A stretch of 64,000 nucleotides of DNA from Glandiceps talaboti (lineage: Eukaryota; Hemichordata; Enteropneusta; Spengelidae): NCBI RefSeq assembly GCF_964340395.1, contig NC_135556.1:25066223-25130222 (forward strand), read 5' to 3'. Of this stretch, positions 250 through 29,964 are shown in pieces. The notes beneath the pieces were generated by a model that had not been told where the DNA came from, searched no databases, and saw nothing but the letters and a program-made list of their open reading frames with translations. The stretch's first letter is position 1. Each line of letters opens with the position of its first letter. The position numbers and the translations under genes are program-made.

Positions 250-3200
250 ATGGGAAGTACCCCTTCCCAGCCCTTGGTTTGTGAAAAGTGCTCGAACGCG
301 GTTGGGCAGCAACACTGCGAGAGTTGTGGTGCCCCTCGACTGCAATCAAAGTCTGTTATCACGACCGACGACGAAGAGAAACCGTGGAAGTGTGATGTTT
401 GTTTACTGGAGAACGGGGACAGTGTCAAATCGTGTGGAAGATGTGGGCGACGTCGTGATCATGTGGGAATGGAAGAAACAAAACAGTGAGTAGATCGTCG
501 TGGTTTGTTTTCAAAACTATGATTATACTCTACGGCTTACAAAATTTAATCACGATACGTCGATAGTGAAAGTGAGTGTCAAGTTAATCCCCGGAAATAT
601 CAGCCAGTAATTTGAGTGATAACTTTAGCTTCCATCGCAGACACATAGACACACACTTTTACAACCTTACACCAGTATAAAAAAAAGTTTTACACGACGA
701 CGGTGAGGAACAAAATAAAATTAAAAAAATAGATATATATTAAAGTAGCCCACAATTTATGAAGGACAAATCATGCCTTCCAACAAATCTCAATATACAA
801 ATGTATGGATGATACAAACATGCTTAAATAAAATGCACTCCCACCAACACCACCACCATGAACGTTGGGTATAAAGTACATGACTCAATTCCAACCTGGT
901 AACTCCAACTGGATGACAATACGGAGAATAAATCAGCATACTGTATTTGTCAGTCAGCCATGATTCATCATTAAAAGTAACATGACTGTTTTGCTTATTA
1001 ATCACATTCACAAAGCTAACGATACATGTAAGATTAACTGTAACAGTGGAGTCTTACTGTCTTTCAACTTATGTTTTACAAATGAACTGATGATATTATG
1101 ATATCTACCAGAACAGATAAGTCACAAAGTACACAGTCATCATAGTGACTTCTTAGTGATATACACAAGAACAAAAACGTAGGTAGATGTGATAATTCTA
1201 CAATGACAATAGTGTTAGTAATACTAGTATTTGATCGAATTTGATTGATGATTTCACTGACACATTCTGGTAAGTATACATTTTGTGCACTGTAATTTAC
1301 TTACTCAAACCATTAAACCGTTAAAAGTGTTCTTGACAATGGTAATGTTTTAATTTAATTGATAAAATGACTGATAATTTTTTTTGGTCAGTCAAATTAA
1401 AACATTACCCCTGTCAGGGAATTATTATAGTGATGCTGATGTCCACAAGAATAATATTGAGATATAAGTGTGATATTTGTACAGTGACAGTGACAGTGAC
1501 AGTGACAGTGACAGTGACAGTGACAGTGACAGTGACAGTGATAGTGACAGAGGTCTTCATATTTTGGTATAAACATTCTGGTTTGTTTCTCTGACACATT
1601 GATGTTGTGAATATACATTACTTATTGAAATTATTGTTACAATTGTTGATGAGTTAATGTTTTTAAGTTGAATAATATGTAATCAACCAATGAATAATTA
1701 ACTTGTAACTGTTTTTAGCCATCATATGACATGACTTAAACAGTAAGTATTCATTTTAGACTTGAGATTTCCGTAGTATGTGTATAGTTATGCCTGTCAG
1801 GTACTCCATGTAGACAGTGGAGAGACTGTATATGGGTTCATAGTATGACATAACATTACATGTGTAAATGGTAAATGTGTATGGTGAAGTATGAATGATA
1901 ACAATGTCAAGTGTAGGTGTTTTTTGTAGGTATGGCATTTCCTCATTGTTTTGGGTCATTGACTGACAAAAACAAATCATACATACACCCACGCTTGTTA
2001 CTCAGAAGAAATTACCTTTCTGTATATGGCATTGTCATTACTTGCCCCCCCCCCCCCCAAAAAAAAAAATAATAATTGTTTGGTTCCAGTTACCTGACCC
2101 CACCTAGTTTTACACTGCCAACCCTAAACTTTTTTTTTACATGTATGTACTTGAGAAAAAGATAATAAAATCGCAAAAATTGTGATGTTTTTTTAAAATT
2201 TTGCATATTCTTTTTAGAGTTTCTGTACATCGCACTGTGACGTATGTGTAGTGCGTTTTCTAAGAAATTAAAATAATAATAATAATAATAATAATAATGT
2301 CTCCCAAGAAATAGTGGGTGCGGAAACTGACATCATCTTAAAAAGACATTCTAAAGCTGTTCTTCCAATCTGTAATGGCTGTACATCTGATAGAAAGAAA
2401 GAAATAACATAGAGACCATTTGGAAAACAATGGAAAACCTGAACTAGACACTCAGACATGAAAAAAAATGAAATAAAAAATCTACATACCCACCTATTCT
2501 AAAATTGAGTGTAATCGGAACCACACAATTTTTTATTATGTGTATATATATTATGTATATTGAAAGAATACCTTTTTTGATAAAATGAACTAACAATCAT
2601 GCAAATTGTTCATCTGTGTACGATTGATAACAAAATGAAAGTTGTCATCATATCATGCATGTCCTCTTAGAGTCTATTCAGTCACGACCTATGAGGTCAT
2701 GCGTGGATGACCTTTGGATCATGTTACAAGCATTAAGACTACAATGATACTGCTTTCACTAAACCCTGATACTTTTGTGTGATATTCATTATATAGTGAG
2801 GTTTCAACCATGGAAAGTATGTGGGTATCCTGTTGTACATGGGTCTGTTTGGAGTTGATAATGAGAAAAAGGTGGTCACACTGTAGGAAGTGTCCTCCAC
2901 GTTTCCTGTTACTAGAGGGTGTACACACATGTAATGTATCAAGTGTTGACTTCTCTCAGGTCTTTCTAGGGTTGATTTACTCAAAACTATGCCTATACTA
3001 ACCTAGAAATTCTCAGTGATATCTATTTCATTCCCATTTCTATAGGAATAGGAAAGACAGTGAGTGCGAGGTAAAGGAGAAAGAAACTGAAGGACAAAAA
3101 CAAGAACCAAGTATTGAAGAAGATATGGATATAAGCTGGAATTGTATAAAATGTACCTACACCAACAAGGCAGAGTCAACTTCCTGTTCAATGTGTGATT

Positions 3201-4945
3201 ATTGCAGAGAAAGCAATGTAACTGAGAATGGTGACCCTTCATTACCAGAGGACATGGAAGTAGATTTAGTGCCTATAATAGATCTGACTTCTGATGAAGG
3301 TAAGGCTAAAAATACTACTACTGACAATGTTGGTGCAACTTCCACTAATTCCTGTATGAAAGCTGACACCTGGAAATGCCAGCGGTGTACCCTGGAAAAC
3401 CCCAGTAATTCTATGTCTTGTGCTGTGTGTGAAGCGCCAAGAAAACTCTCTTTACCAACAATTCAGCCTTTGAAAGGTCTAAAAGAACCTCTAGTGGAGA
3501 ATTTTGTAGATATAAGCACTGAGAAAAAATTGAAGTCACCTGTTTCTAAATCTCCTAAAAGACCCAAAGAAATTATTGTCAAACCTTGTGAAGATGTAGG
3601 AGCCTCAAGGAGTAAGATTAAATCTCCACAGAAGTCACCAGGGTTGGAGCTTGCTACTGCTTTAATAGCTCATTTGAATAACCAAAAACCAACCTTGGTG
3701 CCAGAACAAAAATCTATACCTGATATTTACCCTGATGATAGGAATAAAGGTGAAACAGATGGGAATAAGGTTGAAACAGACAAGAGTGAGAGAGACAATT
3801 TAGATGCCAACAATAAAGTGGCAAGCTCACAGGTGTGGATATGTGCTAAATGCACCTGCAGAAATACTGATAAAGCTTGTCAAAACTGCAATATGACAAA
3901 GAAAATGAGTGTTAGGATACGTCGTGCAAAGGTTAAGAAAACTAGTAATGACACTGAAGTGTGTGCAAGTACAGAAAATGATAAACTCAACAATAGTGTT
4001 ATTGTCATTGATGATGAAGAAAGTAGTGAGTGTAGTGAAGACAGAAGCAGTGACAGTAATGCTGACAGTAGTGGTGCTAAATCAGATAATAATATCAGTT
4101 CTACTCAAGTGGAGAATAGTGATAGTGATAATGGTAAATCTAGAAATACAAGTTCTGAAAAACAAGATGATAGTGATACTGAAAACCAGAACTCACAAGA
4201 TGTTGATATATCTGATTGTGGAGAGCCAAAATCAAAATCAGCATCAGAATCAGTTTTAGAGCCAGCTGCAGAATCGGCCTCAGAATCATCATCAGCTACA
4301 TGGGCATGCACTAATTGCACTGCTGGTGAAAATCCAAGTAATGTAGATATTTGCACTGTGTGTGAACAGCATAGAGATGGAGCAGTGGAGATGGCAACCA
4401 TTGACCTTACCAAGGCAACTGTCACCTTTGTTCCTAAATCTCCAGGTGGACCACTGTCCAGAACGAATGCTGTCAGGAAAAAAATGTGGGAATGCACACA
4501 GTGTACATGTCTGAATATGGAAGATATCATGGAATGTTCTGCTTGTGGAAGTCAGAAAGTTTCGGTTGCTACCAAACCAACAACACCAATGATACCAGGT
4601 GATAATGAGTGGGCGTGCCAACAATGTACTTACAATAACACTAACCTAGTCAATGTGTGCTGTGTTTGTGGTGCTGTTAAACCATTTACTTCTTCTGGGT
4701 TAGCGTTTGATTTTCCAGAGACATGGAATTGTCCCAAGTGTACCCTAGAAAATAACAGTAGACATACAAGGTGTTTTGTGTGTGGCTATGATAAGAGTAC
4801 AGAACAAAGTGAAGAACACACAGCTAAAGCAAACAGTGGTGGTAAAATAGGCAGACAACGAAGTATTGTCATTGAATCCAAGAGGAAGAAAGACGAAGAT
4901 AGTGCTAAGCAGCAGTTTGAAAAGATTGTAGAATTCTGCAAACAG
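250..4945 (+). CDS. CAPN15: CAPN15 N-terminal zinc-finger region (exons 1-2)
   Basis: Exon 1 (250-485) and the long exon 2 (3046-4945) encode the ubiquitin/RNA-binding-type front half. Exon 1 has one finger lacking the usual Trp (VCEKC...CESCG) and one typical finger (WKCDVC...CGRCG). Exon 2 adds seven: WNCIKC, WKCQRC, WICAKC, WACTNC, WECTQC, WACQQC and WNCPKC, each followed by a second C-x2-C after about 10 residues, as in the RanBP2/NZF class. Between them lie [11 protein letters not shown] and VIVIDDEE, which look like SUMO-interaction motifs (hydrophobic run plus acidic tail), and a Ser/Asp-rich low-complexity stretch. Exon 2 ends in phase 0 just before the protease-proximal segment. Finger count and spacing are seen directly; ligand binding is inferred from the family. 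Confidence 0.92.
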
Positions 4946-7900
4946 GTATAGTAAAATATTGTATCAGGTTGTTTATTTTCTGTACACAATACAAACTTAT
5001 AATCTGTACTTTTGATACTAAGTATTAGGCCAAGAAAAAGAAGGATTTGTGATGATGAATAATAAAATTGTAAAATTGTCAAAATGTTGTCAGCCATAAA
5101 TTACAATTTTATGTCATGAAAATATGTGACTTATAGTTATTAAAATAATATATTTATTGTACTTATTTCCATTGTGAATTTTTTTTCAGTGACATAAAAA
5201 ATTGTTGTGTGATTAATATTTCTATTGTGTTTTCTTACTATATAGGATCATAGTCAATTTATTGATGATTCCTTTCGCCCATCATCCAAATCTCTCTATT
5301 ATAATGACAAAGAACAATTTGATTCTCGTGTATGTGATTGGTTGAGACCTGATCAAATTCAGTGTACATCACGTGATGAACTGCAAATTCCCTGGGCTGT
5401 GTTCAGAACCCCAATGCCATCCGACATATCACAGGGTATTCTTGGAAATTGTTGGTAAGTTCTGGAGCTAGATCAGTCAGATTTCTTACTTTAATTTGGT
5501 TTAGGTTGATCAAGAGGTTCATGTATATTTCAAATTAAAACTTAATAAAGTGACAATTTTGTAAACTTTTGCCTGATTTCCTCTTTCTTGGTACTAATAT
5601 TTGACAAACTGTGCAATAGATCTAACACTTTTGATGTGATACTAGTATTTTTCATACTTTTATTCTACTAGTAGAATAGTAAGAATAATAATAATAAAAA
5701 AAACTATAGATATTATATAATTCATTGTTTGTATTTTTTCATATATGCAGGTTTTTAAGTGCACTAGCTGTTTTAGCAGAGAGACCAGATTTAGTAGAAA
5801 AGATTATGATAACAAGGGAATATAACCCAGAAGGTGTATACCAAGTTAGACTGTGTAAAGATGGTATCTGGACCACTGTAGTGATTGATAGCTTATTACC
5901 ATGTGATCATAGGGGTGTACTGGTTTACTCTCAGGTGAGTGAAATCATAGGGGTGTACTGTTTTACTCTCAGGTGAGTGAAAAGTACTGTAGTTTTTGTG
6001 TTTCAGGCTTGTATGAGTTGGTTTCTTGCTGGGAAATTAATGACTCAGAGAGGCTGCCTATTTATAAATAGAATAGAATAGAATAGAATAGAATAGAAAA
6101 CTTTATTGTCCATCGTGTAAATATGGGAAATTATTTTAAGTCACTCGCTATACATAAGTGAACTTTTGGGTTTTTAGAAATTACATACTATGATACATAA
6201 AAAGTGCATTTTGTAAGTCATTCCTGTTATCTTCGAGGTGAGTATAATACTGTAATACAGTGTGTCCCTCCATGCACCCTCATCAGCTTTCTCTTTTTGT
6301 TGATGTGTGAGGGCGCCTGAACACTCTGTCGTACCGACTAAGTGAATAGTTTAAAACATGGATATTGTAACACCATGACAACAACCTGTGCAACTACGTA
6401 TATATATATTTATCATAATATGATTGAGATAAGATCCAAGAAAGTTCTGATATCTTTTTCCAGGCCAAAAGAAGACAATTATGGGTGCCATTAATAGAGA
6501 AAGCCTTAGCTAAGATGCATGGTTGTTATCAAGCATTAGTGTCTGGTAGATGTATAGAAGGGTTGGCTACGTTGACTGGTGCTCCATGTGAAAGTATACC
6601 TTTACAAAGTAAGTGTCACCTCATATAGTACTTATTTATTGATTTCAATCCATTCTGAGTCTGTCAATAGGTGTCATGTATGTGAATACACTGTGTACAG
6701 ATGAGTCACATTCACTATGCCACTTACACAGGCTTGTGTATGTTTTGATGGCTGGTCCTATCACATATACAGTGTATGTTATCATGTAGGATATATTTAG
6801 AATTTTATAGTGTAGTCTGCAGAAATAACTGTGGGTAGAGAGAGTGCCTGAGAGAAACCTGTTGGCTTTGTTATAAACGTACTGAAACAAAACCAAAATA
6901 TGAAACAAAACAAGGAAATGAAAGCTAAAGATACCCTTACATTATATGTTACTATATGAAATAAAGTTTATAACCTATGTTTAATTTCACAGAGTGAATG
7001 AAATAAATTCTGTAACGTACATTTTATTTCAGAGAATAAATGAAATGAATTATATAACACATGTTTCATTTCAGAGAGTGGTTTAGGTCCGAATGATCCA
7101 CCCCTAGATAAAGATCTTATATGGGTTAAACTGTTAAGTTCTAAAGAAGCTGGGTAAGTTAAATTGCAAACGAGTATGTTTAGCTACTTTGGAATTTAGC
7201 ATTTTCAAAAGTAAAAATCAGCCAGTATATTACTCAATTTCAGTTGTCTAAATTCAACAGATGTCATTGTTAATTGTTTTAGATCATGAAATAAAAGAAA
7301 CCTATTTTTGAATCTGTGAATTAAGCGAATACGGAGTTTTCACTCGGACATCATCAGTGTAATACACCCGACTATATTACACTGATGACATCCGAGTGAT
7401 TTGGATGAAAACTCTGTACTCGCTTAATTCACAGGTTCCAAATAGGTATCTTTATATCAGTGCACATGTGAAATCATATACAAGCATGATGGTATATTTA
7501 TTGTGAAATTTGCTGTAGCTAATAATAATAGAACCTTGGCTATGATGTGAGAATGCCAGTGTCGGTATTGTGGGAATGGTATATTTGAACTTGTGTTTGG
7601 ATTGCTTTTGGCTGCACTTTTACTTTCTCTGATCACAGACAACACTGGAAGCACTCATGCAAATACCCAGAGTATACTACACCTGTACACGCACCGACAT
7701 CATGAAGTTCTGTCATATGACTCCCATTGCCAGATACATTCTATGGATTAAATCTGATCTCTATTTTATCAACTGATACAGGTTTTTAATGGGGGCGTCA
7801 TGTGGTGGCGGTAACATGAAGGTGAATGATACCGATTATCATACCATTGGACTCAGACCAAGACATGCATACTCTGTGCTAGATGTACAAGACATATGTG

Positions 7901-9508
7901 GGCATAGGTAAGTCATCTATACACACACTGTATACTCCAACCAAGACATGCGTATTCTCTGCTAAACATAGTGAGGTGTAAGTAAGTCATCTATATACAG
8001 TGTATGTCTACTCTGCAGTTACTTGCTGTGAAGATGTGAAATAAGGAGTATTTAGACTTTTGATGCAAATTGATTTTAGAGTTATGAGATAAGTATTTAG
8101 AGTTTTCATGTAAGAGTAGATTTAGATTTTTGATGCAAAAGGTTTGGATTGTAGTCATTCCATTCTCGTTTGTTGTAAAGATTCCAATGATGAAAATATT
8201 GTACAATATTCCTTACAAACAGTGAGTGATACTGTGATACTGTGATACTGTGATACTGTGTACTGTGTACTGTGATGTTGGTATGGGGACAGGAAATGGT
8301 GTGAGGGTATTGCAAGACCACACCTCACACCTTGACCTGTCAACCGTACCCACGTTACCATGACAGCATATGGACCTGTGTTAACATGACATCCATCTAG
8401 ACGCTACCAACAGGATGTATTATCTAGGCAATCACCCTGTTCCTGTCAACCATACTAATGTTACCATGACAACTTTTGGAGCCAAGTAACCATGACAACA
8501 ACATATATTGCTATGCCAACCAGTCAGTTCCTGTTTCCTGGTCATATTGCTATGGCAATAATACATATCTCTGTTGTTCTATTTAGATTAATACGTTTAC
8601 GTAATCCATGGGGTACATATTCCTGGAAAGGTGATTGGTCTGACGAGTCTCCACTATGGACCAGTGATCTTAGGGAAGTATTAATGGTACATGGTGCATC
8701 TGAAGGTGTCTTCTGGATGTCATTAGATGATATGCTCCAGTAAGTAACACTTAAAGAACTTGCGAAGACTGACTGAACCTTGGATTAGAGAATATTTGTA
8801 GTGTGGCCAAGTGACTATTATTATTCTATCATATACAAAACCATATATTACACATTGCTGAATCCTCTCTCTTGGGGTTAGGGGTGAGGTGGGGTGGTAT
8901 TTGTTTGTACACAACAAATTGCTTCAAGTTTAGTCTGTAAGGTGCGACATGATGGGGTGCCCTCACACATTGGTCAACCTCTTTCACACAGTGACACAGT
9001 GCATCATAATTTCTACTTCAAGTTGAGCAACACAGGATTAATATGCAGTGGTATGGAGAATAATTTAGTAATTATGATGACAGAAGTCAATTTATTCTAT
9101 GTAATTATCTATTTCATGGAATACACATTTGATCAGTTAGTATAATTATCAATTAATGGTGTGAGAACTCAGTAAACTAGTACTTAGTACTTTCGTCCTA
9201 TCGCTAATTCTGTCCTCAATCCGTGAGTACTTTCTTGTGTGTCTGTTCAGGATGTTGCATAGGATAGGATTAATTAAAACATACCAATCTCTATTCTGTT
9301 ATAGGTACTTTGATACTGTTGATGTATGTAAGGTTAACTCTGATTGGTCAGAAGCCAGACTAAGTGGGGTGTTTCCAAATCATGCAGGCCAATCAATGCA
9401 AGTCACCATGTTAACAGTCACAGAACCAACAGAAGTGGAATTTGGACTGTTTCAGGAAGCTGATCGGTATGCCTAGATGAAATTATCAAACTAATATGCA
9501 GTTTGTGT

Positions 9509-9588
<80 letters not shown>

Positions 9589-12500
9589 ATGCGTGCATTT
9601 GTGCATGCATGCATGCGCGTGTTTGTGTCTGTATAGCCATGTTGAAGCACCTGTTTCATTTCTTTACTTTATATACATCATTTGATAGAATCAGTTGTAG
9701 CAATGAAAGGCAAAACAGATTCTGGTTTTGCATGACCCCCAGATTGTGATACATACAAATTATATGATTTCTTATATTCCCTAATTTACAGAAATGAACA
9801 GAAAAGTAAACGAAGTCTTCTAGATTTAGGTATTGTTGTTTTGAGGACAAGTGGTATGAGTACAACTGGTATGTACAAGTTGGGAACATTCTGTAGAAGA
9901 CAAGTCAAGGCATTTGTTGGTTGTAGAGAGATGTTAGAACCTGGTCTATATGTGGTGGCATGTACGGCGTTTAATCATTGGACAACTGGTGTAGACATGA
10001 CAGGTAAGTGTAGAGAGATGTTAGAACCTGGTCTATATGTGGTGGCATGTACAACATTTAATCATTGGACAACTGGTGTAGACATGACAGGTAAGTGTAG
10101 AGAGATGTTAGAACCTGGTCTATATGTGGTGGCTTGTACAACATTTAATCATTGGACAACTGGTGTAAACATGACAGGTAAGTGTAGAGAGATGTTAGAA
10201 CCTGGTCTATATGTGGTGGCTTGTACAACATTTAATCATTGGACAACTGGTGTAAACATGACAGGTAAGTGTAGAGAGATGTTAGAACCTGGTCTATATG
10301 TGGTGGCTTGTACAACATTTAATCATTGGACAACTGGTGTAGACATGACAGGTAAGTGTAGAGAGATGTTAGAACCTGGTCTATATGTAGTGGCTTGTAC
10401 AACATTTAATCATTGGACAACTGGTGTAGACATGACAGGTAAGTGTAGAGAGATGTTAGAACCTGGTCTATATGTGGTGGCTTGTACAACATTTAATCAT
10501 TGGACAACTGGTGTAAACATGACAGGTAAGTGTAGAGAGATGTTAGAACCTGGTCTATATGTGGTGGCTTGTACAACATTTAATCATTGGACAACTGGTG
10601 TAAACATGACAGGTAAGTGTAGAGAGATGTTAGAACCTGGTCTATATGTGGTGGCTTGTACAACATTTAATCATTGGACAACTGGTGTAGACATGACAGG
10701 TAAGTGTAGAGAGATGTTAGAACCTGGTCTATATGTGGTGGCTTGTACAACATTTAATCATTGGACAACTGGTGTAGACATGACAGGTAAGTGTAGAGAG
10801 ATGTTAGAACCTGGTCTATATGTGGTGGCATGTACAGCATTTAATCATTGGACAACTGGTGTGGACATGACAGGTAAGTGTAGAGAGATGTTAGAACTAT
10901 GTGGTGGTATGTATGGCATTTAATCATTGGACAACTGGTGTAGACATGACAGGTAAGTGTAGAGAGATGTTAGAACCTGGTCTATATGTGGTGGCTTGTA
11001 CAGCATTTAATCATTGGACAACTGGTGTAGACATGACAGGTAAGTGTAGAGAGATGTTAGAATCTGGTCTATATGTGGTGGCATGTACGGCGTTTAATCA
11101 TTGGACAACTGGTGTGGACATGACAGGTAAGTGTAGAGAGATGTTAGAACCTGGTCTATATGTGGTGGCTTGTACAGCATTTAATCATTGGACAACTGGT
11201 GTAAACATGTACATGACAGGTAAGTGCACAAGTTATAAATAGCACACAATACATTGTAAAGAAGCTGTAATTTTTAGTTGTCAGAGCTTTCATTGTCACA
11301 AGAATTTAAAAAAAACATTGTTGTATCATTGTAATTTGAAGCATGTACTATAGCTGTACATTGTTCAATGTCATGTTTGTCATGAAGTATGCCGTAACAA
11401 GAGATTTCAATGAAAACAATTGTAATGTAGGTATGAAAGTCTTTCTATTGACTATATATATCAGAGTACTAAAAAGTGAAATAAATCTTGTGATTGTAGA
11501 ACAGATTGAGTATTTGAGAACAATTCCCAAGAAAAGATTGAATAAATGATATCTGTTTTTTAACAGGAGTAAGAAGTCCTGTGCGGAAAGACAGCTTACC
11601 CATGTACACCCTGACCATGCATAGTTCTAAAGCTGTAATTGTAGAACAAATAGCGCCCTCTATGACTTTCTTAGCTGATGCTGTTATACAGTTAGCTATA
11701 CATCAAGGCAAACAACATGAGGTAAGTACAGCTAGACTTTAGGAAACAATTGAAATAAAGATGTCTTTAAATGCTTTAAAATGTTTTCAAAGTTTTTCTA
11801 ACAACTGTGTAAACAGAAAAATGGAGAACTGAAGAAGAAAGAGTAGGGAAAATATGATAACATTACTAGAACCCATGAAATTTTGAACAGCATAAAGTAT
11901 TAGTAATAATAAAGTTACCTTATTGGAATCTAGTTTTTGAGCATCTACGTAGCTTTCGTCCGAATGACTCAGACGTCATCAGAGTAATGATGTATATTAA
12001 GCATAACTATGAAGTACACCACAAAATATCACTATGAATACAAAGTATGTGATGTGTTCATATTTTAATTTGATTGTCTTACAGGGTCGTGAAGGCGTTA
12101 CATGTTACTACTTAGACCATGGTTGGGCTGGTCTGATTGTGGTGGTAGAAAACCGTTATCCTGACAGATACTTACATATCAAATGTGATTGCACCAATAG
12201 CTTTAATGTGGTCTCTACCAGGGGATGTCTGGTCACAACAGACAGTGTGCCACCATTGCGCAGGTTAGTCACATGACAATCACATGATCAGGACATATAG
12301 CTCATGATGAGAATATGACTAGCACCTGACTATCTTATGATCAGGACTTGATAGTCTTTTCATTTGGCACATGATTGTCATATCAATCAGCACAAAATAG
12401 TAATGGTAGCGTTTTATATATTGCTTTCCCACACTGTGCTCCAAGCACTTTACATTTAATACCCATGGCATTGATCTGTAATGGCTCATTGGCCTTTTAT

Positions 12501-12917
12501 ACTTTCTCAACTCCCTGGGGAAAATACTGTACATGGTAGCCTCCATAAGTACCCAGGATTACAGCATTCACATTGCAACCTATATCCTACCAGGTCCCCA
12601 ATTATACAGCTGGGTTGACTAAGGCACAGTCAAGGGTCAGATCTTGTCAGATCTTGAAAACAAGTCATGTGAGAACTTCAGATATGTCAAGTGCTGTTTC
12701 ATTGTCATTTTTAGGAAACTGAATTTTAGTACTGTTATTTTACAGACAAGTTCTCAATGTGCTGACTCAGCTTGAAGGCAGTGGATTCAAAATTGTTCAT
12801 CGTATCAGCCACAGAATGTCATACCAGTCAGATCTAGATACGTGGGGACCAGGACAACGTCATCTTCCGTTACTAACACAGGATATCTATGGGTTACATA
12901 CTGAAAGACCTCTATAG
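250..12917 (+). CDS. CAPN15: Calpain-15 (small optic lobes homologue), 13 coding exons
   Basis: Exons: 250-485, 3046-4945, 5246-5454, 5751-5934, 6464-6608, 7075-7153, 7782-7907, 8587-8739, 9305-9466, 9792-10003, 11567-11721, 12085-12263, 12746-12917. All junctions are GT-AG; the lengths sum to 3912 nt, or 1303 residues, against about 1086 in human (extra length mainly in the N-terminal zinc-finger half). In order: nine RanBP2-type zinc-finger units, two acidic SUMO-interaction-like motifs, a calpain cysteine-protease core, and the conserved SOL-homology C-terminus ([21 protein letters not shown]). The triad is intact: Cys781 in LGNCW, His946 in RPRHAY, Asn966 in RNPWG. Known role of the family: intracellular protease of the SOL group, lacking penta-EF hands and linked to ubiquitin binding and to neural and eye development. 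The ATG at 250 is chosen because it opens the first finger exon. Oddities: a 15-donor minisatellite after exon 10 and duplicated splice junctions in introns 4, 5 and 7. Confidence 0.96.
1481..1550. repeat. Hexanucleotide microsatellite (GTGACA)n
   Basis: About eleven tandem copies of GTGACA, the last diverged. It lies within CAPN15 intron 1. The open frames over it (alternating Val-Thr on one strand) are artefacts of the period being a multiple of three. Confidence 0.95.
2271..2299. repeat. (AAT)n microsatellite
   Basis: About nine copies of a trinucleotide AAT/ATA repeat in CAPN15 intron 1. Possibly the tail of an old retroposon, but no body is recognisable. Confidence 0.85.
5246..9466 (+). 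CDS. CAPN15: CAPN15 calpain protease core (exons 3-9)
   Basis: Seven short exons encode the catalytic domain. Exon 3 ends inside the codon after the catalytic Cys (GILGNCW), so the active-site Trp is split across intron 3. Exon 4 holds the [17 protein letters not shown] helix. Exons 5-6 contain [14 protein letters not shown] and [14 protein letters not shown]. Exon 7 carries [10 protein letters not shown] and the catalytic His ([12 protein letters not shown]). Exon 8 carries the catalytic Asn (RLRNPWG) and the WSDESPLW motif. Exon 9 has [14 protein letters not shown]. All are nearly colinear with vertebrate CAPN15, so the enzyme should be active. The donor of exon 4, the acceptor of exon 6 and the donor of exon 7 each have duplicated copies in the adjoining intron. 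Confidence 0.95.
5905..5982 (+). repeat. Tandem duplication of the CAPN15 exon 4 splice donor (2 copies)
   Basis: The last ~25 bases of exon 4 and its donor (CTCTCAG then GTGAGTGAAA) are repeated immediately downstream with a one-base difference. The true donor GT is at 5935; the duplicate donor is at 5973. Use of the second donor would add 38 nt and shift the frame, so it is a decoy that the cell must ignore or use at a cost. Confidence 0.9.
6071..6175 (-). mobile_element. 3' end of a LINE-type retroposon (truncated)
   Basis: Read on the minus strand, the segment ends with GGACAATAAAGTTTT followed by five copies of TTCTA/ATTCT, the usual 3' tail of CR1/L2-like non-LTR elements in many animals. 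The preceding ~80 bases (minus strand) look like the end of its 3' UTR. No coding part is present, so this is a 5'-truncated insertion in CAPN15 intron 4. Family assignment is by tail form only. Confidence 0.6.
6956..7081 (+). repeat. Three tandem 42-bp copies of the CAPN15 exon 6 splice acceptor
   Basis: Three 42-bp units start at 6956, 6998 and 7040. Each begins ATGAAAT(A/G)AA and ends in a pyrimidine run with TTTCA(C)AGAG. The last unit carries the acceptor used for exon 6 (exon begins 7075). Splicing at either upstream copy would meet a TGA a few codons in, so only the last acceptor keeps the calpain frame. Copies are moderately diverged, suggesting an older event than the exon 10 array. 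Confidence 0.85.
7299..7447. mobile_element. Foldback / MITE-like palindromic element
   Basis: Two arms of about 64 and 74 bases are inverted copies of each other, beginning ACCTATTT and ending AAATAGGT, with a ~10-base loop. The right arm has a ~10-base insertion. No coding capacity. It sits in CAPN15 intron 6. A single-arm relative, with the same TCATCAG(T/A)GTAAT core, appears near 11918-11992 in intron 11. Confidence 0.7.
7850..8005 (+). repeat. Decayed tandem duplication of CAPN15 exon 7 end and donor
   Basis: The last ~58 bases of exon 7 with the donor GTAAGTCATCTATA are followed in intron 7 by a degraded copy beginning ACTCCAACCAAGACATGCG. It again leads into GTAAGTCATCTATA at about 7982. 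Exon-derived codons in the copy have substitutions and deletions, so it is a relic. It shows that donor-spanning duplication has happened here more than once. Confidence 0.75.
8218..8275. repeat. Short GTGATACT-type tandem repeat
   Basis: Several copies of a 9-base unit (GATACTGTG) then shorter TACTGTG variants in CAPN15 intron 7. Simple replication-slippage repeat. Confidence 0.8.
8925..9010 (+). repeat. Dispersed repeat fragment shared with 41798-41922
   Basis: The stretch starting AGTCTGTAAGGTGCG, followed by a GGGGTGCCCTCA-like run, matches with ~75-80% identity the left half of the foldback element in the GLIS2 locus. It is probably a truncated copy of the same non-autonomous transposon family, in CAPN15 intron 8. 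Confidence 0.55.
9505..9592. repeat. (GT)n microsatellite
   Basis: About 40 GT dinucleotides in CAPN15 intron 9 just downstream of the exon 9 donor. Overlapping Cys-Val or His-Thr frames are artefacts. Confidence 0.97.
9792..10003 (+). CDS. CAPN15: CAPN15 exon 10, source of the donor minisatellite
   Basis: The exon encodes the start of the domain behind the protease core: [15 protein letters not shown], then the block [19 protein letters not shown], then TTGVDMTG. In vertebrate CAPN15 the equivalent EPGEYAVVCCAFNHW is followed by a variable loop, so extra residues here should be tolerated. The exon ends ACA G in phase 1; the next constant exon starts at 11567 with GA, restoring Gly. The final ~81 coding bases plus the donor are the template of the 87-bp array that follows. 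Confidence 0.93.
9923..11226 (+). repeat. 87-bp minisatellite of exon 10 end plus splice donor (15 donors)
   Basis: The exon copy plus 14 further units, each carrying about 81 coding bases and a perfect donor (GACAG then GTAAGT). Donor GTs fall at 10004, 10091, 10178, 10265, 10352, 10439, 10526, 10613, 10700, 10787, 10874, 10953, 11040, 11127 and 11220. Period is exactly 87 except one unit of 79 (8-base deletion) and a last one of 93 (6-base insertion). Read through, each unit is 29 residues, starting [13 protein letters not shown]. The frame stays open from exon 10 to a TAA at 10921-10923 in the shortened unit. Donors 1-11 are thus in frame with exon 11; donors 12-15 lie beyond the stop. Copies differ mainly by Ala/Thr, Asp/Asn and a few silent changes. 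Confidence 0.95.
12385..12655. repeat. Possible dispersed retroposon-like repeat in CAPN15 intron 12
   Basis: The segment reading GCTCATTGGCC, ACTCCCTGGGGAAAATACTG and TACCAGGTCCCC looks like a repeat family I believe is widespread in marine invertebrate genomes. Only one copy is in this window, so the call rests on memory rather than internal evidence. No coding potential. Confidence 0.3.
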
Positions 12918-14140
12918 ATGAGACTAGAAATGAAGACATGTTGGTGTTCATATCAAAATATTTGATTGTGTCTGAATGTAATGTGTCAGTTTGTGAGTTG
13001 GGAAAATGCCAATCATGAATATTTCACTAAAATGATGTGTATGATAAAATTGCAGTCTGCCAAAACAAGATTGATGTTGTCATGGTTACTGTCATGTGAT
13101 ATTGTAGATGTACTATCAGATGATATATCTCTGATTCTTCATAATTGTCAGTGTTTATAATTATATCTAAGCAAATCTGCAGTTTGTGCTGTCAGGTGTG
13201 TTTGGATAATTTGACATCAAATATTGTCTGCTAATGTTCCTGTCAACTCGTTTGCCTTCATCATATCTTGTCTCAATGATGTGACAGGATTTTACATCTG
13301 GTCTTTTAGACATACATTTACATCATATGCCCTCTAATGATAGCCATATTTTGTTGTTCTGGGTCAAAATGATAGAAACTGTCATTTCTTGTGAGTCACC
13401 ACATAGTAAGAGATAAGGGAACATCAAATTTTGGTGTGTCACTAGAAATTGTGTGCGTCAGTGGTGCTTCAATTGGCTTAGAGGGCACACTATTTACATA
13501 CATGGCAATGACAACATTTGAAATGAGCCATACAGTTTGTATACTAAGTACTTGTGTGCAATGTTTGGAAGTAAAGTTTCACTATTTAAGCTGTTTAGTT
13601 CTATGATATTTGAAGATGAAGCTGAGTGGGCAATCAATCACACAATAACATCTTAGTATATTTTGGTAAGGTTTTCAAACAAAGATAAGGAGACCTGTTT
13701 GTAGCAAAATTTCCAGTTTTCTATGATTATGCCATAGTTTTGTTTTGGGTGTTTGATGTTAATTACCACACTGAACAAAACAGTAACTAATGCCAGGGTT
13801 TGTACATAACAAAATGATGAAAAAAAAATTAATGAAAATGAACATTTGATTGATGGACCTGGTGCAAAATGTTCTTATTAATACATTATGTCATTAAATT
13901 ATGTAAAAAGTCAAATGATTGTTGGTTTACTCATGAATTGGAAACCAAATTTGTAGATAAAAATGAATTTTGCTTGTCCAAATAAACTCATAGAATTGGA
14001 TAGCTCAACTTGACAATATTTATGGTAAATTAATTTTGTAGTCCAGTATTTGAGTTCAAGTCAATCAGACTGCCTTGTGATAGTAAATTTGTATCTGTGT
14101 TTTATTGTTTGTTTTGGTTTCATTATCAATAAATATTCTG
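12918..14140 (+). other. CAPN15 3' UTR
   Basis: About 1.2 kb of AT-rich non-coding sequence follows the CAPN15 stop codon. Two AATAAA hexamers (13981-13986 and 14128-14133) are plausible ends. Nothing else recognised. Confidence 0.6.
14128..14133 (+). terminator. Candidate polyadenylation signal for CAPN15
   Basis: AATAAA followed within ~30 bases by a T-rich stretch, about 1.2 kb past the stop codon. An earlier AATAAA at 13981 is an alternative. Confidence 0.45.
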
Positions 14141-18920: not shown

Positions 18921-21900
18921 TTACTTTGGAAAGAGACTGGTGACAGTTCTTGTCATTTGTTGCACTCTGAAGACGATATCTCGACATGCTGGATTGTTGC
19001 CATGGTGTTGACAGTAGAAAAATACGCCAAACAACACTGCTACTATGCCAACCATGAAGGTAAACAGAAACATGATGTAGCAAGGTGACACTGTGGATAA
19101 AACAAGACAGAAAATATATTGCATAAAAGAGTTTTGCAAGGTTTCTCTGCTATCAATTTTGATAGTATTAGTAGTAGTCTAATAGAAGGTATACTATGAA
19201 ACCCTACAATCTCCTATAATTTACTATAAACTAACATTATCATCTAATAGTACACACTACTGATATCGGTCCAAAGCAAAGTACTTGTCATTTTCAGATA
19301 CTTTTTTTGTGTGCTTTTTATGTGTTTGAAAATATCAAATACAGCACAGGTTGCTGCAATAAAAGAGACAGTAGGTCATTGTAATTAGTTGTAATGTCTA
19401 CCATGGTAGTCCTTGATGGCAGATATAATATATTCATAGTTGCACAATGAATATTCAGATTTTCCAGTGAAGGGGATAAGCTCTCAGGAGTCATGAATAT
19501 TCATTACACAACCTTGAATATATTATTTTTGATGACTCCCATCATGCAAATGGCTCACAGCAAATACAATTTTAAAGAATAGAAATTTCATTTTTAGGAT
19601 AAACACACTATGGTGAAAGAAATTGCTGCAGTACACTAGCATTTTTGAGTCGATATAAATTAGTTTATTGAAATGAATCAAATTTGTCTTTCGATGATTC
19701 CTAATTTGTTATTAACTTAAATTGCAAAAATCAAGATGTCAAAAAATCTTGCATCACCACTGGAGCCCAGCTAAATTTTGGCAGTGCCTGCCAGACAAGG
19801 CCATATATACAACACTAAACATCCTTGAAAATATTCACATAAGAGAAACCGGACCTATTGTACTACTACAAGGTCGTAACTAAGTGTCTAATAGCCACGG
19901 CAACAAAGAAACATGTTGTCAAAACCTTAGCCTCTTTTCCCATAGCTACAAGGTCACTACGGCAACAACAACTCTGTCACGTCTAGTCTTTGTATATGAT
20001 GAGATGTGTTGTGGAAAAAAGATAATACATCAGTCTGTTCTTAAAGCTTTGTTGAAATTTCATATTGTTATACCTATAAGCAATGCACATAAGTAAAATA
20101 AAATGAAAATTTTCAGATGAAATTTCTATATTATTATGTAAATCCTGGCTGCTTCCCAATGTTTGCAGTCAAACAATTCAATTCATTATAGACAATGGAC
20201 TCTTGCCATAATCTGTAGTTTAGTGATACACTGACAACAAAAACAGCAAAAATTATTGTTTATTCAGAATGTCTTCATATCTTTCTGTTTAAAAGAACAT
20301 GAAACCATTTTGTTTTCTTTCAAGGTTGAAGCAATACAAAGAGTTTCTTGTAATCAAATAAACATAGCTTTGTTAGCAACTTTACAAACGCATTGTATAC
20401 AGCTGGTAAACTGGAAAATGATCCTAGTCGTGTCGTAAGTAGAATACGAATATAAAAAAACAGAATATTATTTACCTGATAAAGGTTTCATGTGTTCTGT
20501 TTGATAACCATTTAGTTTCTGGACTTCTGAAATACGGAGAGAGAGAAATAGCATAATGAATGTAAAAAAGAACAAAGGAATTATAATATACTGTATTCTA
20601 TTGATATGGTTTCTTCTTAAAGTACTAGTACAGCATGGGTGTTCAAACAAGACAATGGAGGTTCATAAACAGGAATATCTCCATTTTTCTTGCTATTTCA
20701 TACAACTATGCAAGTTACATGCCCTTTTTAGATTCCTAACCTCTGACATTTTGTAAGTTTTTGTACTCAGAAACCTTGAAAATGCATCAATTTGAGAAAA
20801 ATTGAAATCAAGAAGTAACTGAGCAAAACTAACGATGTCCCAATTGATGGTGCAATATGCTTCAGAGCTTTACATATTACAACCAAAACAGGTAATGTTC
20901 ACCAGAAAACTATAAACATGATGCAGTATGTTATCAGTGCTTTACATATTACAGCCAAAACAGGTAATGTTCACCAGAAAACTATAAACATGATGCAGTA
21001 TGTTATCAGTGCTTTACATATTACAGCCAAAACAGGTAATGTTCACCAGAAAACTATAAACATGATCAATGTCAATTCTTCAAGTTGAGTGTGTTTTACT
21101 AGAAAGATAACAGCACTGTATAACTGCTGAAGACAGCATGATTGTTGAGTGTGTTTTACTAGAAAGATAACAGCACTGTATTACTGCTGAAGACAGCATG
21201 ACTGTTGAGTGTGTTTTACTTGAAAGATAACAGCACTGTATTACTGCTGAAGACAGCATGATTGTTGAGTGTGTTTTACTAGAAAGATAACAGCACTGTA
21301 TAACTGCTGAAGACAGCATGACTGTTGGGTGTGTTTTACTTGAAAGATAACAGCACTGTATTACTGCTGAAGACAGCATGATTGTTGAGTGTGTTTTACT
21401 AGAAAGATAACATCACTGTATTACTGCTGAAGACAGCATGATTGTTGAGTGTGTTTTACTTGAAAGATAACAGCACTGTATTACTGCTGAAGACAGCATG
21501 ATTGTTGGGTGTGTTTTACTTGAAAGATAACAGCACTGTATTACTGCTGAAGACAGCATGATTGTTGAGTGTGTTTTACTAGAAAGATAACAGCACTGTA
21601 TAACTGCTGAAGACAGCATGATTGTTGAGTGTGTTTTACTAGAAAGATAACAGCACTGTATAACTGCTGAAGACAGCATGACTGTTGGGTGTGTTTTACT
21701 TGAAAGATAACAGCACTGTATTACTGCTGAAGACAGCATGATTGTTGAGTGTGTTTTACTAGAAAGATAACATCACTGTATTACTGCTGAAGACAGCATG
21801 ATTGTTGAGTGTGTTTTACTTGAAAGATAACAGCACTGTATTACTGCTGAAGACAGCATGATTGTTGGGTGTGTTTTACTTGAAAGATAACAGCACTGTA

Positions 21901-24900
21901 TTACTGCTGAAGACAGCATGATTGTTGAGTGTGTTTTACTTGAAAGATAACAGCACTGTATAACTGCTGAAGACAGCATGATTGTTGAGTGTGTTTTACT
22001 AGAAAGATAACAGCACTGTATAACTGCTGAAGACAGCATGACTGTTGGGTGTGTTTTACTTGAAAGATAACAGCACTGTATTACTGCTGAAGACAGCATG
22101 ATTGTTGAGTGTGTTTTACTAGAAAGATAACATCACTGTATTACTGCTGAAGACAGCATGATTGTTGAGTGTGTTTTACTTGAAAGATAACAGCACTGTA
22201 TTACTGCTGAAGACAGCATGATTGTTGGGTGTGTTTTACTTGAAAGATAACAGCACTGTATTACTGCTGAAGACAGCATGATTGTTGAGTGTGTTTTACT
22301 TGAAAGATAACAGCACTGTATAACTGCTGAAGACAGCATGATTGTTGAGTGTGTTTTACTAGAAAGATAACAGCACTGTATAACTGCTGAAGACAGCATG
22401 ACTGTTGGGTGTGTTTTACTTGAAAGATAACAGCACTGTATTACTGCTGAAGACAGCATGATTGATATTGAGGGGGAGAGTACAAAGTTGATTAATTTGA
22501 ACAAAACCATAAGTTATTCTTGTATGCTCCCCAGGGAATTGACAATGTAAAGGGCTGTTGTGTTGCTATAAATCCATGCTAGTGGTAAAAATTGTGAGCG
22601 CCTTGGGCTCTCATGAGAAAAAGCGCATTATAAATCCACATTATTTATGTTATTATTATTCAACAACATTCCCACTGTGTTCAGTATTAGCAAGTAAAAA
22701 CAACAACCTCAGCTTCAAAAAACCAGCCTTGATCATTAAATGTATATTTTTATGTATAGTCTTCTGGTGAATACATCCTGTTTTAGCTTTACATTCAATC
22801 AAACAGCCTGACCTATGTTGACCTATGACCTTGATTGACCTATGTGTACATAATGTCTGGTATCTCAAGGATGTCCATGGTCAAGTTTTAGGAGTCAATT
22901 AAAAGTGATGACAGAAGCCTTCTTATTTTACACGTTTTTGTTGATTTTTTTCATTGGTTTTGACAACTCCATTGTTTCAATATTGTGTATCTAAGAGTGG
23001 AACTTAAAATATGTAATGTCCAATTATTTTTATGGTAGCCTAAGATTGTCTGACATGTCTATGTATTTTACTATGTATGAGAACCTGATAATATAAAGGT
23101 CTTGTATAGATTTTCATAACTTTCTTTGTACCATACATTTAGATGGGGAACCTGGTAATGTGGAACCCAGTAAAACATCTTGGGAATTCAGGTAGATTTT
23201 ACCTACCTATACCAGGTTCTCCAAAAATACAGTAACTATGGATTTAAAAACAAATATTGGTGTTTTTGTACAGGGTAGTAAGTAAGTAACTTCTACCTGT
23301 CAGTGAGTTCCATAGCTGTTTTACCAGGGTTCCCACCAAAAATAATGGGACAACCAAAGTATGAAATTCTAAACAAAGTTTAACAGATTTTTAAAGACTG
23401 GTAATTTCTGAACTGAATCACTGAATTGATTGAAATCACCAAATCGTTGTATTGATTGAAAACTCTGAAAGTACAACTTACCTTCCTCTTCTTGTGTATT
23501 TGGTGAATCGTTTAAGTCTTCTTGTTGTATGGCGGCCTGTCTGGCTTCATATTCTTTCCTTTTCCTGTCTTTTTCTGCTTGTTTTTGTTTCTTTTTCAAC
23601 TCTCGTTGTTTACTCTCTTCTGCTGCTATAGCTGCTTCCTTCTCTATAAAACAAAATTCAATTTACATTGTAAAATGTTTCAAATTATTATCGCACTATA
23701 ACATTTTTCTACTTGTAATTTGTTGTACACAATGTAGTGTCATTTGAGTGAGAATGACCAAATAAAATAAATTTGTGCACACACTTGAATGTGACTTTGA
23801 AAATAATATCAAGATTTAATAGTGAGTATCCTGTCAGTGCTTCTAAACAAAGACAGTAATTAAGAAAAGTTAATGTTGTGTAATTCAGTGTATAACTGTA
23901 ATGAAGCAAACATCTCAAGATACTGTATTGTTTCTGCAAGAGATACAAATGTTGCAAGTTGCATCATCCTTTAGAATTTCACTGTATAAAGTTAACCACA
24001 AGAGGGCAGTGTTCATTAGGTAGGTCTATCCAAGATACTGCACTACTGACCTCTCTCTACTTTCAATCGTTGCTGTTTTTGTCGTTCCTGTTCTGACTGC
24101 ACTGCTTTCATGTAACTTACAACCTGCAATAAAAGATCAGATGAAGTGTACAATGGATTTTACAACCACTGAAATATTGCTAATTTACACCAAATAGTGT
24201 CCAATCAACATTTTTTTTCTTCATCAGTCATCTTATTCATTTATCATTCAAATTCAATAATTGTTAGTACATGAAGTTCTCCAGAGAACAGACACAGTAT
24301 TAAAGACATATTGCTATTATGCTATCATATATATTCTGTCTAAACTACAACACATAGTTCCCTTAACCTTGCAACACACTGAACACTTTGATTGCTGTCC
24401 TTTTGCACTTTCTTTGTAATTCTTGAAAACAAAAAAGTACATGTACCCGTTTAGCACATTCCTTGCATTGCTTATCATCAAGACAGTCTCCAGCAATTTT
24501 CTTCAGTTGATCGTTCAATGGATTATCCTTCAAATCAAGCCATTTCAAGTTTTTTAACCTGGCAAAACTAATGGGAAGAGTTTGAATCTGGTTGCCAAGG
24601 AGATCCAGGTGCTGAATTTTTTCCATATTTCCAATTTTCTGAGGAAGTTCTGTCAAATTATTCTTGCTGAGATCAATCTTTACAAGGTGTTTCAGTGTAC
24701 AGAAAGTATCCTGTATATTATAGAAATGAAACAAAAATATTAATTGCTATTGGCTGACACTGGTCACATGACAAGATTCAAGATGTCTATTAATTACTAT
24801 TGGCTGACACTGGTCACATGACAAGATTCAAGATGTCTATTAATTACTTTTGGCTGACACTGGTCACATGACAAGATTCAAGATGTCTATTAATTACTAT

Positions 24901-26988: not shown

Positions 26989-29964
26989 ATGGTAAGGCTT
27001 GAGAAGTCAGAGTACACACATGCCGATGGTCAGGGTAAACGTAGACCATGTTTATTGTGTCGCGATCGCGATTTATTCACGATGGACTGCACGATAAACT
27101 TTATCACAATTTGTCGTATCGATTGTACATTACTATTACTACACTACAGTAGTGCATACATGACCCCAATGTATATAACATAACACATGTATATCGTCAT
27201 AGGGGTTATTGTATATATTATAATCATGGATGTATTTGGGGAGACATATGCTGCTTGTAGTAGTAAATTTTGAAGTCAAAATCCTCACTCAGCTGTGAAT
27301 ACTAAACAATTTGGCTATCTTCTATGTCTTTGTACAAGTTCACACAACTGTTCAGTTTGTACTGCAAACTTCAATATCATTATCGTATTTCTTATAATGT
27401 ATTTGTACAAACTTTCTTCAATGAAAGGATCTTTATGCTACTAATCATATGTAGTGTTGTTTGTCCAAAAAATGAACCTAGAAAGTCAAATTCCATCGAA
27501 AAATGTAATGTCAATCCAGGAATGTTGTAACAAAGTAAGAACCGATCTAATCTTACTGTACTGTAGTTTGCATATAAATTTATAATTGCAATTGAAAAAT
27601 ATAAATGATTATTGTGTGTTAATATATATATTGAATCCATTGGATAATGTCCTTCTAATACTTTGATAGTTCAATACAACATTCAGCAGAAAGTGGTTAT
27701 AAATTACTAGTATAATTTTTGCATAAAATGATTTTTGTTGTCAAGCAAATCATTAAGATTTGAAAACGTGAAAAAAATTTCAGCAAAAATTTCTTTGGAA
27801 GGGAATGGGGTAACTTTGTATGTACCTGTTATATACAAACTTACAAGGTTTCTATAGAAAAACTTCAAAGAAAAATTAATTTCTATTATTTGTTTGCAGG
27901 CAAAGTACATAGCACAGATAGTAGTACTGGGAGGACAGGTTGTGGCTAGAGCATTTGCCAGAGCTGTCAAACAAGAAGTGGCAGGTAAGAACACAAACAG
28001 AAATCACACTGAGCGAAAACAACAACAACACATAAATGATAAAGCTTACAAATTGATCACAGGACTCCATTCTGACTGTTAACAGGACAACAATCAGAAC
28101 TTGGAATCAGAATGAACTCTCCATCTACAAGCAGGACTAAAGTGATACTGAAAGTCTTCGTAAACATCTCTATTATACCTTTAATAATGGGATGGATTTT
28201 GGACATAAGATTAGATGTGAAATGGTTGACATTATTTATATGTATCTAACATTACAGCCAGTCAAGCAGCTGCTAAGAGAGCAGGGGGTGGTCAACAAGG
28301 TAAAAAAGCTGCTGCAACAGATAGCATCATGGGTATGACATTACAGGTGAGTAGCCTAATCTTAGATTTATGAGATTTTTACATATATGTATTACAAATC
28401 AGGATGTACATGTGCATGTCATCCCTTAGAATTAACTTTATCTGAAAGTGTAGTATTACACATTACTGCCTCACAAACAGATTATTTGACTGTTTTGCAC
28501 TTCATGCAGCAGGCTGTCTATGAGCTAAAGGAGGAAATATTTTCCAAAGAATGACTTTTGAGTTGATAAATTACTGCTTGTCAAAGTCCAGGTATAGAAA
28601 CTACCTCACATTGTTGGTTTTTCACAAGAAAAGTGCCAAATGAAAAATATTTATAGACCATTACATGTATTAATATCAACCAAGATGTCCATATCATCAC
28701 ACATGCACAGTTACTATGGTAACTGTAATTATGCACATGACATCAGTAACAACATATTATGTGTAGATTTAGAACGGTCATAATATTTCAGATATTATTA
28801 TCGTTGTCATTAACAATGAAATTTTGCCCCAACAGGAAGCACAACAAATTTTGAATATATCACCAGAATTAAAAGTGGAGGAAGTTAATAGCAACTATGA
28901 TCATTTATTTAAAGTCAATGAAAAGTCTAAAGGAGGGTCATTTTATATTCAGTCTAAGGTGAGTTTTAGCTTTTGTCTGAATGATACCTGTCCACCCCAC
29001 AATCTGTAATGGTGTTGACCAAAGTGAGTTTTAGATTTTGTCTGAATGATACCTGTCCACCCCCACCCCACCTCCAATCTGTAATGGTGTTGACCAAAGT
29101 GAGTTTTAGCTGTCTGAATGATACCTGTCCACCCCCCACAATCTGTAATGGTGTTGACCAAAGTGAGTTTTAGCTTTTGTCTCATACCTGTCCACCCCCA
29201 CAATCTGTAATGGTGTTGACCAAAGTGAGTTTTAGCTTTTGTCTGAAAGATACCTGTCCACCCCCACCCCCATCCCACCCCAATCTGTAATGGTGTTGGT
29301 CACTGGTAGACTTTAAATATAGTCTAGCTTGTAGGTAGTCACAAGTACTTCAGCAACTCCAGTGTTTATGTTATAATTATACATACAAGTATACACCACT
29401 TCTATCCTATCTTGAGAGGTATCTTAGCACAACTCTTGACTGTTTGTAGAGCCTAAAGTCAATGATTACTCTAACAAATCAAAGTTGTCAATTTTTTTCT
29501 TGATTAATGATTTGTAGTTTTCAGTATGAAAATATTGACATGAAGATTTAGCTGTAACTGAAGCTGTATAATGATGTGGGTATATGCAGTCATTCAAGAC
29601 AATGAGAAATTCACTGAACGTGCCATAACCTCCAGAGTATGGAATATTGTACATCATTTGAAGGCCAGAGTTTCAATCCCAGGTTCCCACATTAGTATAG
29701 TCTCATTAGTGGAGCCAATACGATTACATGGAATCATTCTTTGTTGTGAACCAACTTTTTCTATAGAGTTACTAGACATCACACTGAGAGTGTAATCCTT
29801 AATGAAGACCCGGCCTTTAACTTTTATGTTGTCTTTGTGTTGTCCAGGTTGTCAGAGCCAAAGAAAGAATTGATGAAGAATTCAAGAACAGGGAAGAAAT
29901 CAAGTTAAAAAGAGCAATCAAAGAAGGAGAACAAGAAAAGTCAGAGACAGAATCCAAGTCATGA
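26989..29964 (+). CDS. PAM16: Mitochondrial import motor subunit TIM16 (PAM16 / Magmas), 5 exons
   Basis: Exons: 26989-26991 (start codon only), 27900-27984, 28258-28346, 28836-28958, 29848-29964; 417 nt, 138 residues (human ~125). The N-terminus after Met ([20 protein letters not shown]) is the hydrophobic membrane-recruiting segment. Next are an Ala/Gly-rich linker and the degenerate J domain ([44 protein letters not shown]). The HPD motif of true J proteins is replaced by NEK, as expected for TIM16. Family role: pairs with PAM18/TIM14 at the TIM23 channel on the matrix side and restrains its stimulation of mtHsp70. The coding part of exon 1 is just ATG, split from codon 2 by a 908-base intron. 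Intron 4 begins with five tandem copies of the exon 4 donor. Confidence 0.96.
28953..29300 (+). repeat. Five tandem copies of the PAM16 exon 4 donor region (~62-75 bp)
   Basis: Starting at the exon 4 end (TCTAAG then GTGAGTTTTAGC), units of 62-75 bp repeat five times, with GTGAGT at 28959, 29024, 29099, 29163 and 29225 and a C-rich middle (CCTGTCCACCCCC). Later copies have CAAA rather than TAAG before the GT, making them weaker but still plausible donors. Read-through meets a stop at 29007-29009, so decoy use would truncate PAM16. Confidence 0.92.

Follow-up and report, generated by a model that had tools for sequence, protein, structure and literature searches.

Fifteen identical splice donors follow one CAPN15 exon in the hemichordate Glandiceps talaboti and probably form a silent 'mirage'

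Introduction

When identical splice donors stand in a row behind one exon, which of them ends it, and does the protein change length with the choice? The CAPN15 locus of Glandiceps talaboti raises this question in an unusually pure form, since the end of its tenth coding exon, donor included, is repeated in tandem 15 times. The first-pass annotation of this DNA had held that U1 would find no sequence reason to prefer one copy, and had proposed a family of calpains with 0-10 extra blocks of 29 residues. Here we set out the structure of the array, place it among similar arrays in the same genome, and weigh which donor the gene is likely to use.

A minisatellite of donors at the end of exon 10

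The gene model comprises 13 coding exons at 250-12920 on the + strand of the window (the whole 64,000-nucleotide stretch analysed here), and its conceptual product of 1303 residues carries RanBP-type zinc fingers and a calpain protease domain. Exons were picked by eye before the NCBI protein match had been seen. A database query with the last 564 residues of the model gave 1213 matches; among the best 120, which were listed, the top one was an NCBI entry from Glandiceps talaboti, 'uncharacterized protein LOC144438758 isoform X1' (1303 aa; P0001), whose LOC name we take to be of RefSeq type, and the next were a moth protein (54% identity) and a CAPN15-like protein of Ptychodera flava (79%), followed by crinoids and amphioxus. 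The NCBI protein is letter-identical to the model spliced at donor 1 across all 1303 residues, and because of this identity the array-bearing gene is, judged by sequence, CAPN15 of G. talaboti, an enteropneust hemichordate, which bears out the earlier gene assignment. Compared by sequence with PDB chains at E up to 1, the C-terminus gave no match.

Fifteen tandem units occupy 9922-11224 on the + strand, the first starting at 9922 and the others following in 87-bp steps; thirteen copies measure 87 bp, copy 12 measures 79 bp and copy 15 measures 93 bp. Each unit joins the 82-nt end of exon 10 to GTAAG, the last 82 nt of the exon itself (9922-10003) being the exonic part of copy 1. The units therefore span an exon end and the adjoining intron, and the exon is verified by the NCBI protein. 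The junction GACAG/GTAAGT is letter-identical in all 15 units, with the first GT at 10004. TRF reports a period of 87, 14.9 copies and a score of 2331, and a search of the 590-Mb assembly, which scores the best candidates only, returned 15 unit matches, all within the CAPN15 array. Such an array is far beyond chance. The earlier count of 15 identical donors ahead of exon 11 at 11567 is confirmed, with coordinates that had been 1-2 bases off. The features of the region are as follows.

9792-10003, + strand: CAPN15 coding exon 10, 212 nt when ended at donor 1; model letter-identical to the NCBI protein
9922-11224, + strand: whole 15-copy array; unit of 82 nt of exon end plus GTAAG
10004-10009, + strand: CAPN15 donor 1, CAG/GTAAGT; fits the NCBI protein
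10009-10878, + strand: copies 2-11, in frame and open; includes the 348-bp block duplication, with one difference
10879-10957, + strand: copy 12, with an 8-bp deletion that causes a frameshift and a stop at 10921-10923
10958-11224, + strand: copies 13-15, copy 15 with a 6-bp insertion; transcripts from donors 13-15 would carry the copy-12 stop
11225-11566, + strand: unique remainder of intron 10
11567-11721, + strand: coding exon 11 of CAPN15; no acceptor between 10000 and 11567 scores higher than its own (the matrix includes that acceptor)

The copies carry a record of how the array grew. Copies 3-6 and copies 7-10 are one four-unit block present twice, with 1 difference in 348 bp, and among the full-length copies it is copies 1 and 14 that diverge most from those in the middle. 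In sequence terms, block duplication with divergent end copies is the usual mark of recent mid-array expansion, and the 348-bp duplication, seen in a single assembly, suggests recent turnover of the array. Two bases (TG) are common to the right end of the array and the adjoining intron; when the left end was compared with its flank, no shared bases were seen.

Splicing models give the coding consequences. Donors 1-11 are in frame with exon 11 and yield products of 1303-1593 aa in 29-residue steps, whereas every product of donors 12-15 stops at 1441 aa; the frame is open up to a TAA at 10921-10923, which is due to the 8-bp deletion in copy 12. The claim of eleven in-frame donors with no stop before 10921 is borne out by these models. 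The coding model has 12 introns, the shortest of 296 nt and the longest of 2560 nt. Those flanking exon 10 measure 325 nt upstream and, downstream, 1563 nt from donor 1 or 347 nt from donor 15; the exon 11 acceptor scores 16.6, its own sequence being included in the matrix.

Boundary arrays elsewhere in the window and the genome

Three more arrays that span an exon boundary were recognised in the window, none of them mentioned in the first-pass annotation.

5906-5982, + strand: second CAPN15 boundary array, 38 bp x2, donor CAG/GTGAGT duplicated; donor 1, which ends the exon at 5934, agrees with the NCBI protein
6956-7080, + strand: third CAPN15 boundary array, 42 bp x3, each copy with a polypyrimidine tract and an AG acceptor
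28959-29265, + strand: PAM16/Tim16 exon array, about 62 bp x5; the NCBI protein fits donor 1

The 38-bp period of the first of these is not divisible by three. At the acceptor array the NCBI protein agrees with the third acceptor, next to the exon that starts at 7075, and a rule of proximity to the exon likewise predicts this last one. The PAM16/Tim16 exon is identified by Pfam Pam16 (9.4e-26) and its GTGAGT donors lie at 28959, 29024, 29099, 29163 and 29225; in copies 2-5 of this array, A replaces the G immediately 5' of GT. NCBI proteins thus fit the exon-adjacent site at all four boundary arrays recognised in the window, the acceptor array included. This is consistency rather than proof, as a protein predictor would choose that site in the frame-breaking cases anyway. 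Within CAPN15, a boundary is crossed by 3 of the 6 arrays of period at least 20 (P = 0.007), though this single-gene count was made post hoc. Elsewhere in the window, a 72-bp x3 array at 20847-21066, with CAGGTAATG in each unit, is followed immediately by a 60-bp x23 array (21084-22464); nothing there was recognised as an exon.

Minisatellites are abundant in this genome. Across 244 kb, made up of the window and 18 stretches of 10 kb (L009-L026), TRF found 64 non-overlapping arrays of period at least 20 covering 13.5% of bases. One of these stretches (L009) holds a 7-kb array of a 58-bp unit, and in another each unit of a 40-bp x30 array (L021:914-2119) finishes with an acceptor-like TTTCATTCCTACAATTCAGG. 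When the full assembly was scanned by pattern for perfect donors spaced 66-96 bp, 718 pairs (265 + 453) came up, pairs inside one array being counted repeatedly, and the reversed pattern gave 255 (85 + 170), a comparison not normalised for word frequency (1 and 1 in a 180-kb sample). Places were listed for the pairs on C1 and C2 (69.9 Mb), where they fall into 11 arrays; extrapolation would put roughly 90 arrays of the same motif and spacing in the genome.

About 315 bases were read at the start of each C1/C2 array, the start of L035 not being reached. Homology identifies an exon before the array firmly in 2 of the 11 and weakly in one. Two perfect-donor arrays, L030 and L032, start at exons of IARS1 (4.4e-7) and KNTC1 (3.5e-10 and 1.1e-4). 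The weak case, L036 (G000:C2:31286592-31289526), begins at the donor of a DDX28-like exon (DDX28 match 0.021; Pfam DEAD 0.048, below cut-off) and runs for about 77 units of 38 bp over 2.9 kb, with a perfect CAGGTAAGT in many units, not all. Five further arrays have an open frame before the donor and no homolog above threshold in Pfam or PDB, where tried; L033, L034, L037 and L028 gave no match in those searches and L029 a sub-threshold one only. L027 has a 36-nt open stretch and L031 had no coding look; the homology run was made without L027, L031 and L035. A statistical exon test of the 11 starts, combining an acceptor-score cut-off (matrix from 12 acceptors) with a frame open to the donor, gave 6/11 at a score of at least 4 (null 0.224, P = 0.02), 6/11 at 5 (null 0.167, P = 0.005), 3/11 at 6 (P = 0.14), 2/11 at 7 (P = 0.21) and 1/11 at 8 (P = 0.49). 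The L036 hit lay inside its own array and was spurious, the L034 hit lay within a longer open frame, and the test is a weak one.

Targeting of minisatellites to splice sites is not supported. With the first 13 kb of the window set aside, 58 arrays were compared with unique sequence: strong donor motifs were not enriched (3/58 at a score of at least 8, null mean 4.6; 2/58 at 10 or more, null 1.0; 0/58 at 12, null 0.13), and acceptor motifs were at most marginally so (13/58 at 6 or more, null 8.3, P = 0.04; 6/58 at 8, null 3.5, P = 0.14; 0/58 at 10, null 1.3). Because splice-site motifs are not clearly enriched in arrays, we take the boundary arrays to follow incidentally from the high minisatellite load of this genome and not from targeting.

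Nor is a period divisible by three a property of such arrays. The 11 C1/C2 arrays have periods, read by eye from donor spacings, of 41, 99, 50, 46, 50, 46, 52, about 55, about 47-50 (variable), 38 and 47, with one clear multiple of three; the donor arrays of the window have periods of 38 and 87 and, for PAM16, spacings of 65, 75, 64 and 62. The period is therefore divisible by three in 2 of 14 donor arrays, two variable ones being counted as not divisible. The multiple of three highlighted in the first-pass annotation holds for the 87-bp array and does not generalise, and the open CAPN15 frame looks like the outcome of recency and a one-in-three chance. The 13 copies that measure 87 bp vary at 5 synonymous and 3 non-synonymous sites (p = 0.025 against neutrality); with two more non-synonymous changes, present in copy 12 and counted by eye, the ratio becomes 5:5 (p = 0.07). 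The per-copy comparison that had been suggested was thus made, and its counts are too few to decide on selection. The synonymous excess would be compatible with a degree of coding exposure, or with seeding by the constrained exon copy. With a chance of about 0.81 that 5 random substitutions create no stop, the open frame carries little information, and the earlier caution that it may simply reflect recent copies is one we share.

Which donor is used

We consider it likely that donor 1 is the dominant or sole donor and that the array is a 'mirage', a boundary minisatellite whose downstream copies are intronic and neutral. An 87-bp stretch of CAPN15 (82 nt of exon end plus GTAAG) would have been duplicated in tandem and would then have grown by block duplication in a minisatellite-rich genome. 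Because the introns on both sides of exon 10 exceed about 250 nt, splice sites would be paired across the exon, and the donor nearest the upstream acceptor would win although all 15 are identical; being transcribed first would add to its advantage. Copies 2-15 would then behave as ordinary, selectively neutral intron. The frameshift in copy 12 and the insertion in copy 15 count in favour of such silence.

The precedent for this comes from another system. Five exon-defined minigenes, in which two CAG/guaagu donors of identical strength compete and introns are 365 nt long, used the upstream donor exclusively (PMC9225289, cited here from excerpts, as are PMC3087553, PMC3902484 and PMC4526556), which by analogy would favour donor 1. 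In the accompanying human survey, the downstream donor was favoured in all four intron-length classes when no strength filter was applied; with near-equal strengths only, long-intron events switched to the upstream donor (PMC9225289). The view that U1 has no reason to prefer one copy is thus correct as to the donor sequences, which are identical, and incomplete as to position, which in the minigenes can decide.

The annotated protein agrees with donor 1, and no block-containing form was retrieved. A search with the 141-residue repeat region of the isoform with three extra blocks gave 1152 candidates, and none of the 10 proteins that passed contains a block; the sole Glandiceps protein among them was again P0001, which lacks them. 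The database was clustered at 90% identity, and the P0001 cluster has one member. An 'isoform X1' label presupposes one or more further isoforms, of which X1 is by NCBI custom usually the longest. Protein homology may lead a gene predictor to donor 1, and short reads that fall within the repeat have no unique placement, so the annotation is compatible with minor use of other donors.

A ladder of isoforms is unlikely. In it every one of donors 1-11 would see some use, so that CAPN15 would carry between 0 and 10 additional blocks of 29 residues in a surface loop, its length depending on kinetics and copy-number polymorphism. Eleven identical in-frame donors, the weak synonymous excess among copies, the human gene IFI6, in which two downstream repeat units act as donors (PMC4526556), and the fact that upstream preference is not absolute in human data (PMC9225289) all speak for it. 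So does the place of the junction. The stretch from NHW to YxL measures 9-31 residues in 123 CAPN15 proteins (the 120 listed from the C-terminal search plus 3 from the block search) and 20 in Glandiceps, and N875, H876 and W877 of a crinoid ortholog are invariant across 34 aligned proteins. In an AlphaFold model of that ortholog, of modest quality (mean pLDDT 63.6, pTM 0.43), a strand at 865-873 is followed by pLDDT below 50 at 880-890 and by the next strand from 897. By alignment and model, then, the exon 10/11 junction is in a length-variable loop of low confidence, as had been claimed. The same data weigh against insertion of blocks. One block would give a Glandiceps loop of 49 residues (20 + 29), above the longest (31) of the 123 listed proteins, and in the crinoid model each block would repeat the preceding core beta strand (865-873) and would be no simple linker. 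Donors 2-11 would moreover require exons of 299-1082 nt, the database search found no block-containing protein, and with a period divisible by three in so few donor arrays frame-keeping is no class trait. The proposed isoforms with 0-10 blocks thus stand unsupported, the NCBI protein being the donor-1 form. Low-level use of the nearest few downstream donors, with ladder amounts following donor order and the range following individual copy number, seems to us similarly improbable; if it occurred, splice-site position alone would set protein length.

The opposite order of preference has far less to recommend it. If the last donors competed best for the exon 11 acceptor, the array would be a length-dependent poison: transcripts extending through copy 12 would have their stop at 1441 aa and be degraded, and CAPN15 output would be lowered. 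The intron is indeed shortest from donor 15 (347 nt; 1563 nt from donor 1), and the intron-proximal donor was favoured in classical assays, those of Reed and Maniatis as described in PMC9225289, a rule that would predict donor 15. The same excerpts limit the rule, for near-equal donors, to introns below 250 nt, and all introns of our model are longer; the annotated protein is, besides, the donor-1 form. We regard this reading as very unlikely.

We hold out just as little prospect for an assembly artefact, in which the array has been expanded or collapsed and the true copy number is lower or higher. Tandem repeats are error-prone, and contig C9 has 27,525,465 bases in the assembly of the window and 27,529,565 in that used for the NCBI proteins, a difference of 4,100 bases; against this stand structured differences at 8 sites, with copies 3-6 repeated as 7-10, the indels in copies 12 and 15, and the occurrence of similar arrays elsewhere in the assembly. 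Recursive splicing within the array, which would need a functional acceptor (polypyrimidine tract and AG) immediately ahead of the donor, seems unlikely, the best in-array AG scoring -0.2 with a small matrix built from the gene's 12 acceptors, 11 of which score 3.4 to 12.4, and one -4.4, when left out in turn.

Discussion

A silent array with predominant use of donor 1 would have counterparts in amphioxus. Mirages there, in Adh3, the globin genes BflGb6 and BflGb9, TnC and PGBD5, are minisatellite-like duplications across an exon-intron boundary with AG/GT copies; they occur at donor or acceptor ends and, in the excerpts, splicing is reported as regular and undisturbed (PMC3087553, PMC3902484). 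Length instability is described for those in Adh3 and the globins, and the authors of that work propose mirages as a route to new introns (PMC3087553). Amphioxus units measure 10-72 bp in Adh3, 150-160 bp in the globins and 60 and 108 bp in PGBD5, against 87 bp in CAPN15. The CAPN15 array differs in standing in a hemichordate, in having 15 identical donors and in its period, a multiple of three. In a search of titles that covered chiefly work outside subscription journals, none on hemichordate mirages was found.

Human IFI6 has a repeat unit of 12 bp, and Turri in 1995 reportedly described its minisatellite as giving multiple splice donor sites. Like CAPN15, IFI6 (6-16, G1P3) has donor-bearing minisatellite units and one predominant protein form, of 130 residues, which would be the first-donor form; unlike in CAPN15, where use of later donors is putative and each unit would add 29 residues, later donors are used there, and three mRNAs result (PMC4526556). 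The minigenes of Carranza 2022 resemble our locus in their identical CAG/guaagu donors, introns of about 350 nt and a single upstream acceptor, and differ in being designed two-donor constructs in transfected cells, whereas CAPN15 is a natural gene with fifteen donors (PMC9225289). Taken together, the CAPN15 array is real and striking, and probably a silent mirage of the kind known from amphioxus, now in another phylum.

Rows of identical donors amount to clean natural experiments on how a splice site is chosen, sequence being constant and position alone varying. The Glandiceps genome offers a graded series of them, with 2, 5, 15 and about 77 units (the last in the DDX28-like case, where the perfect donor is not in all units), and this series would let the exon-centric proximity rule, tested with two-donor minigenes in PMC9225289, be read from RNA. 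With it, the mirage phenomenon extends from amphioxus to a hemichordate.
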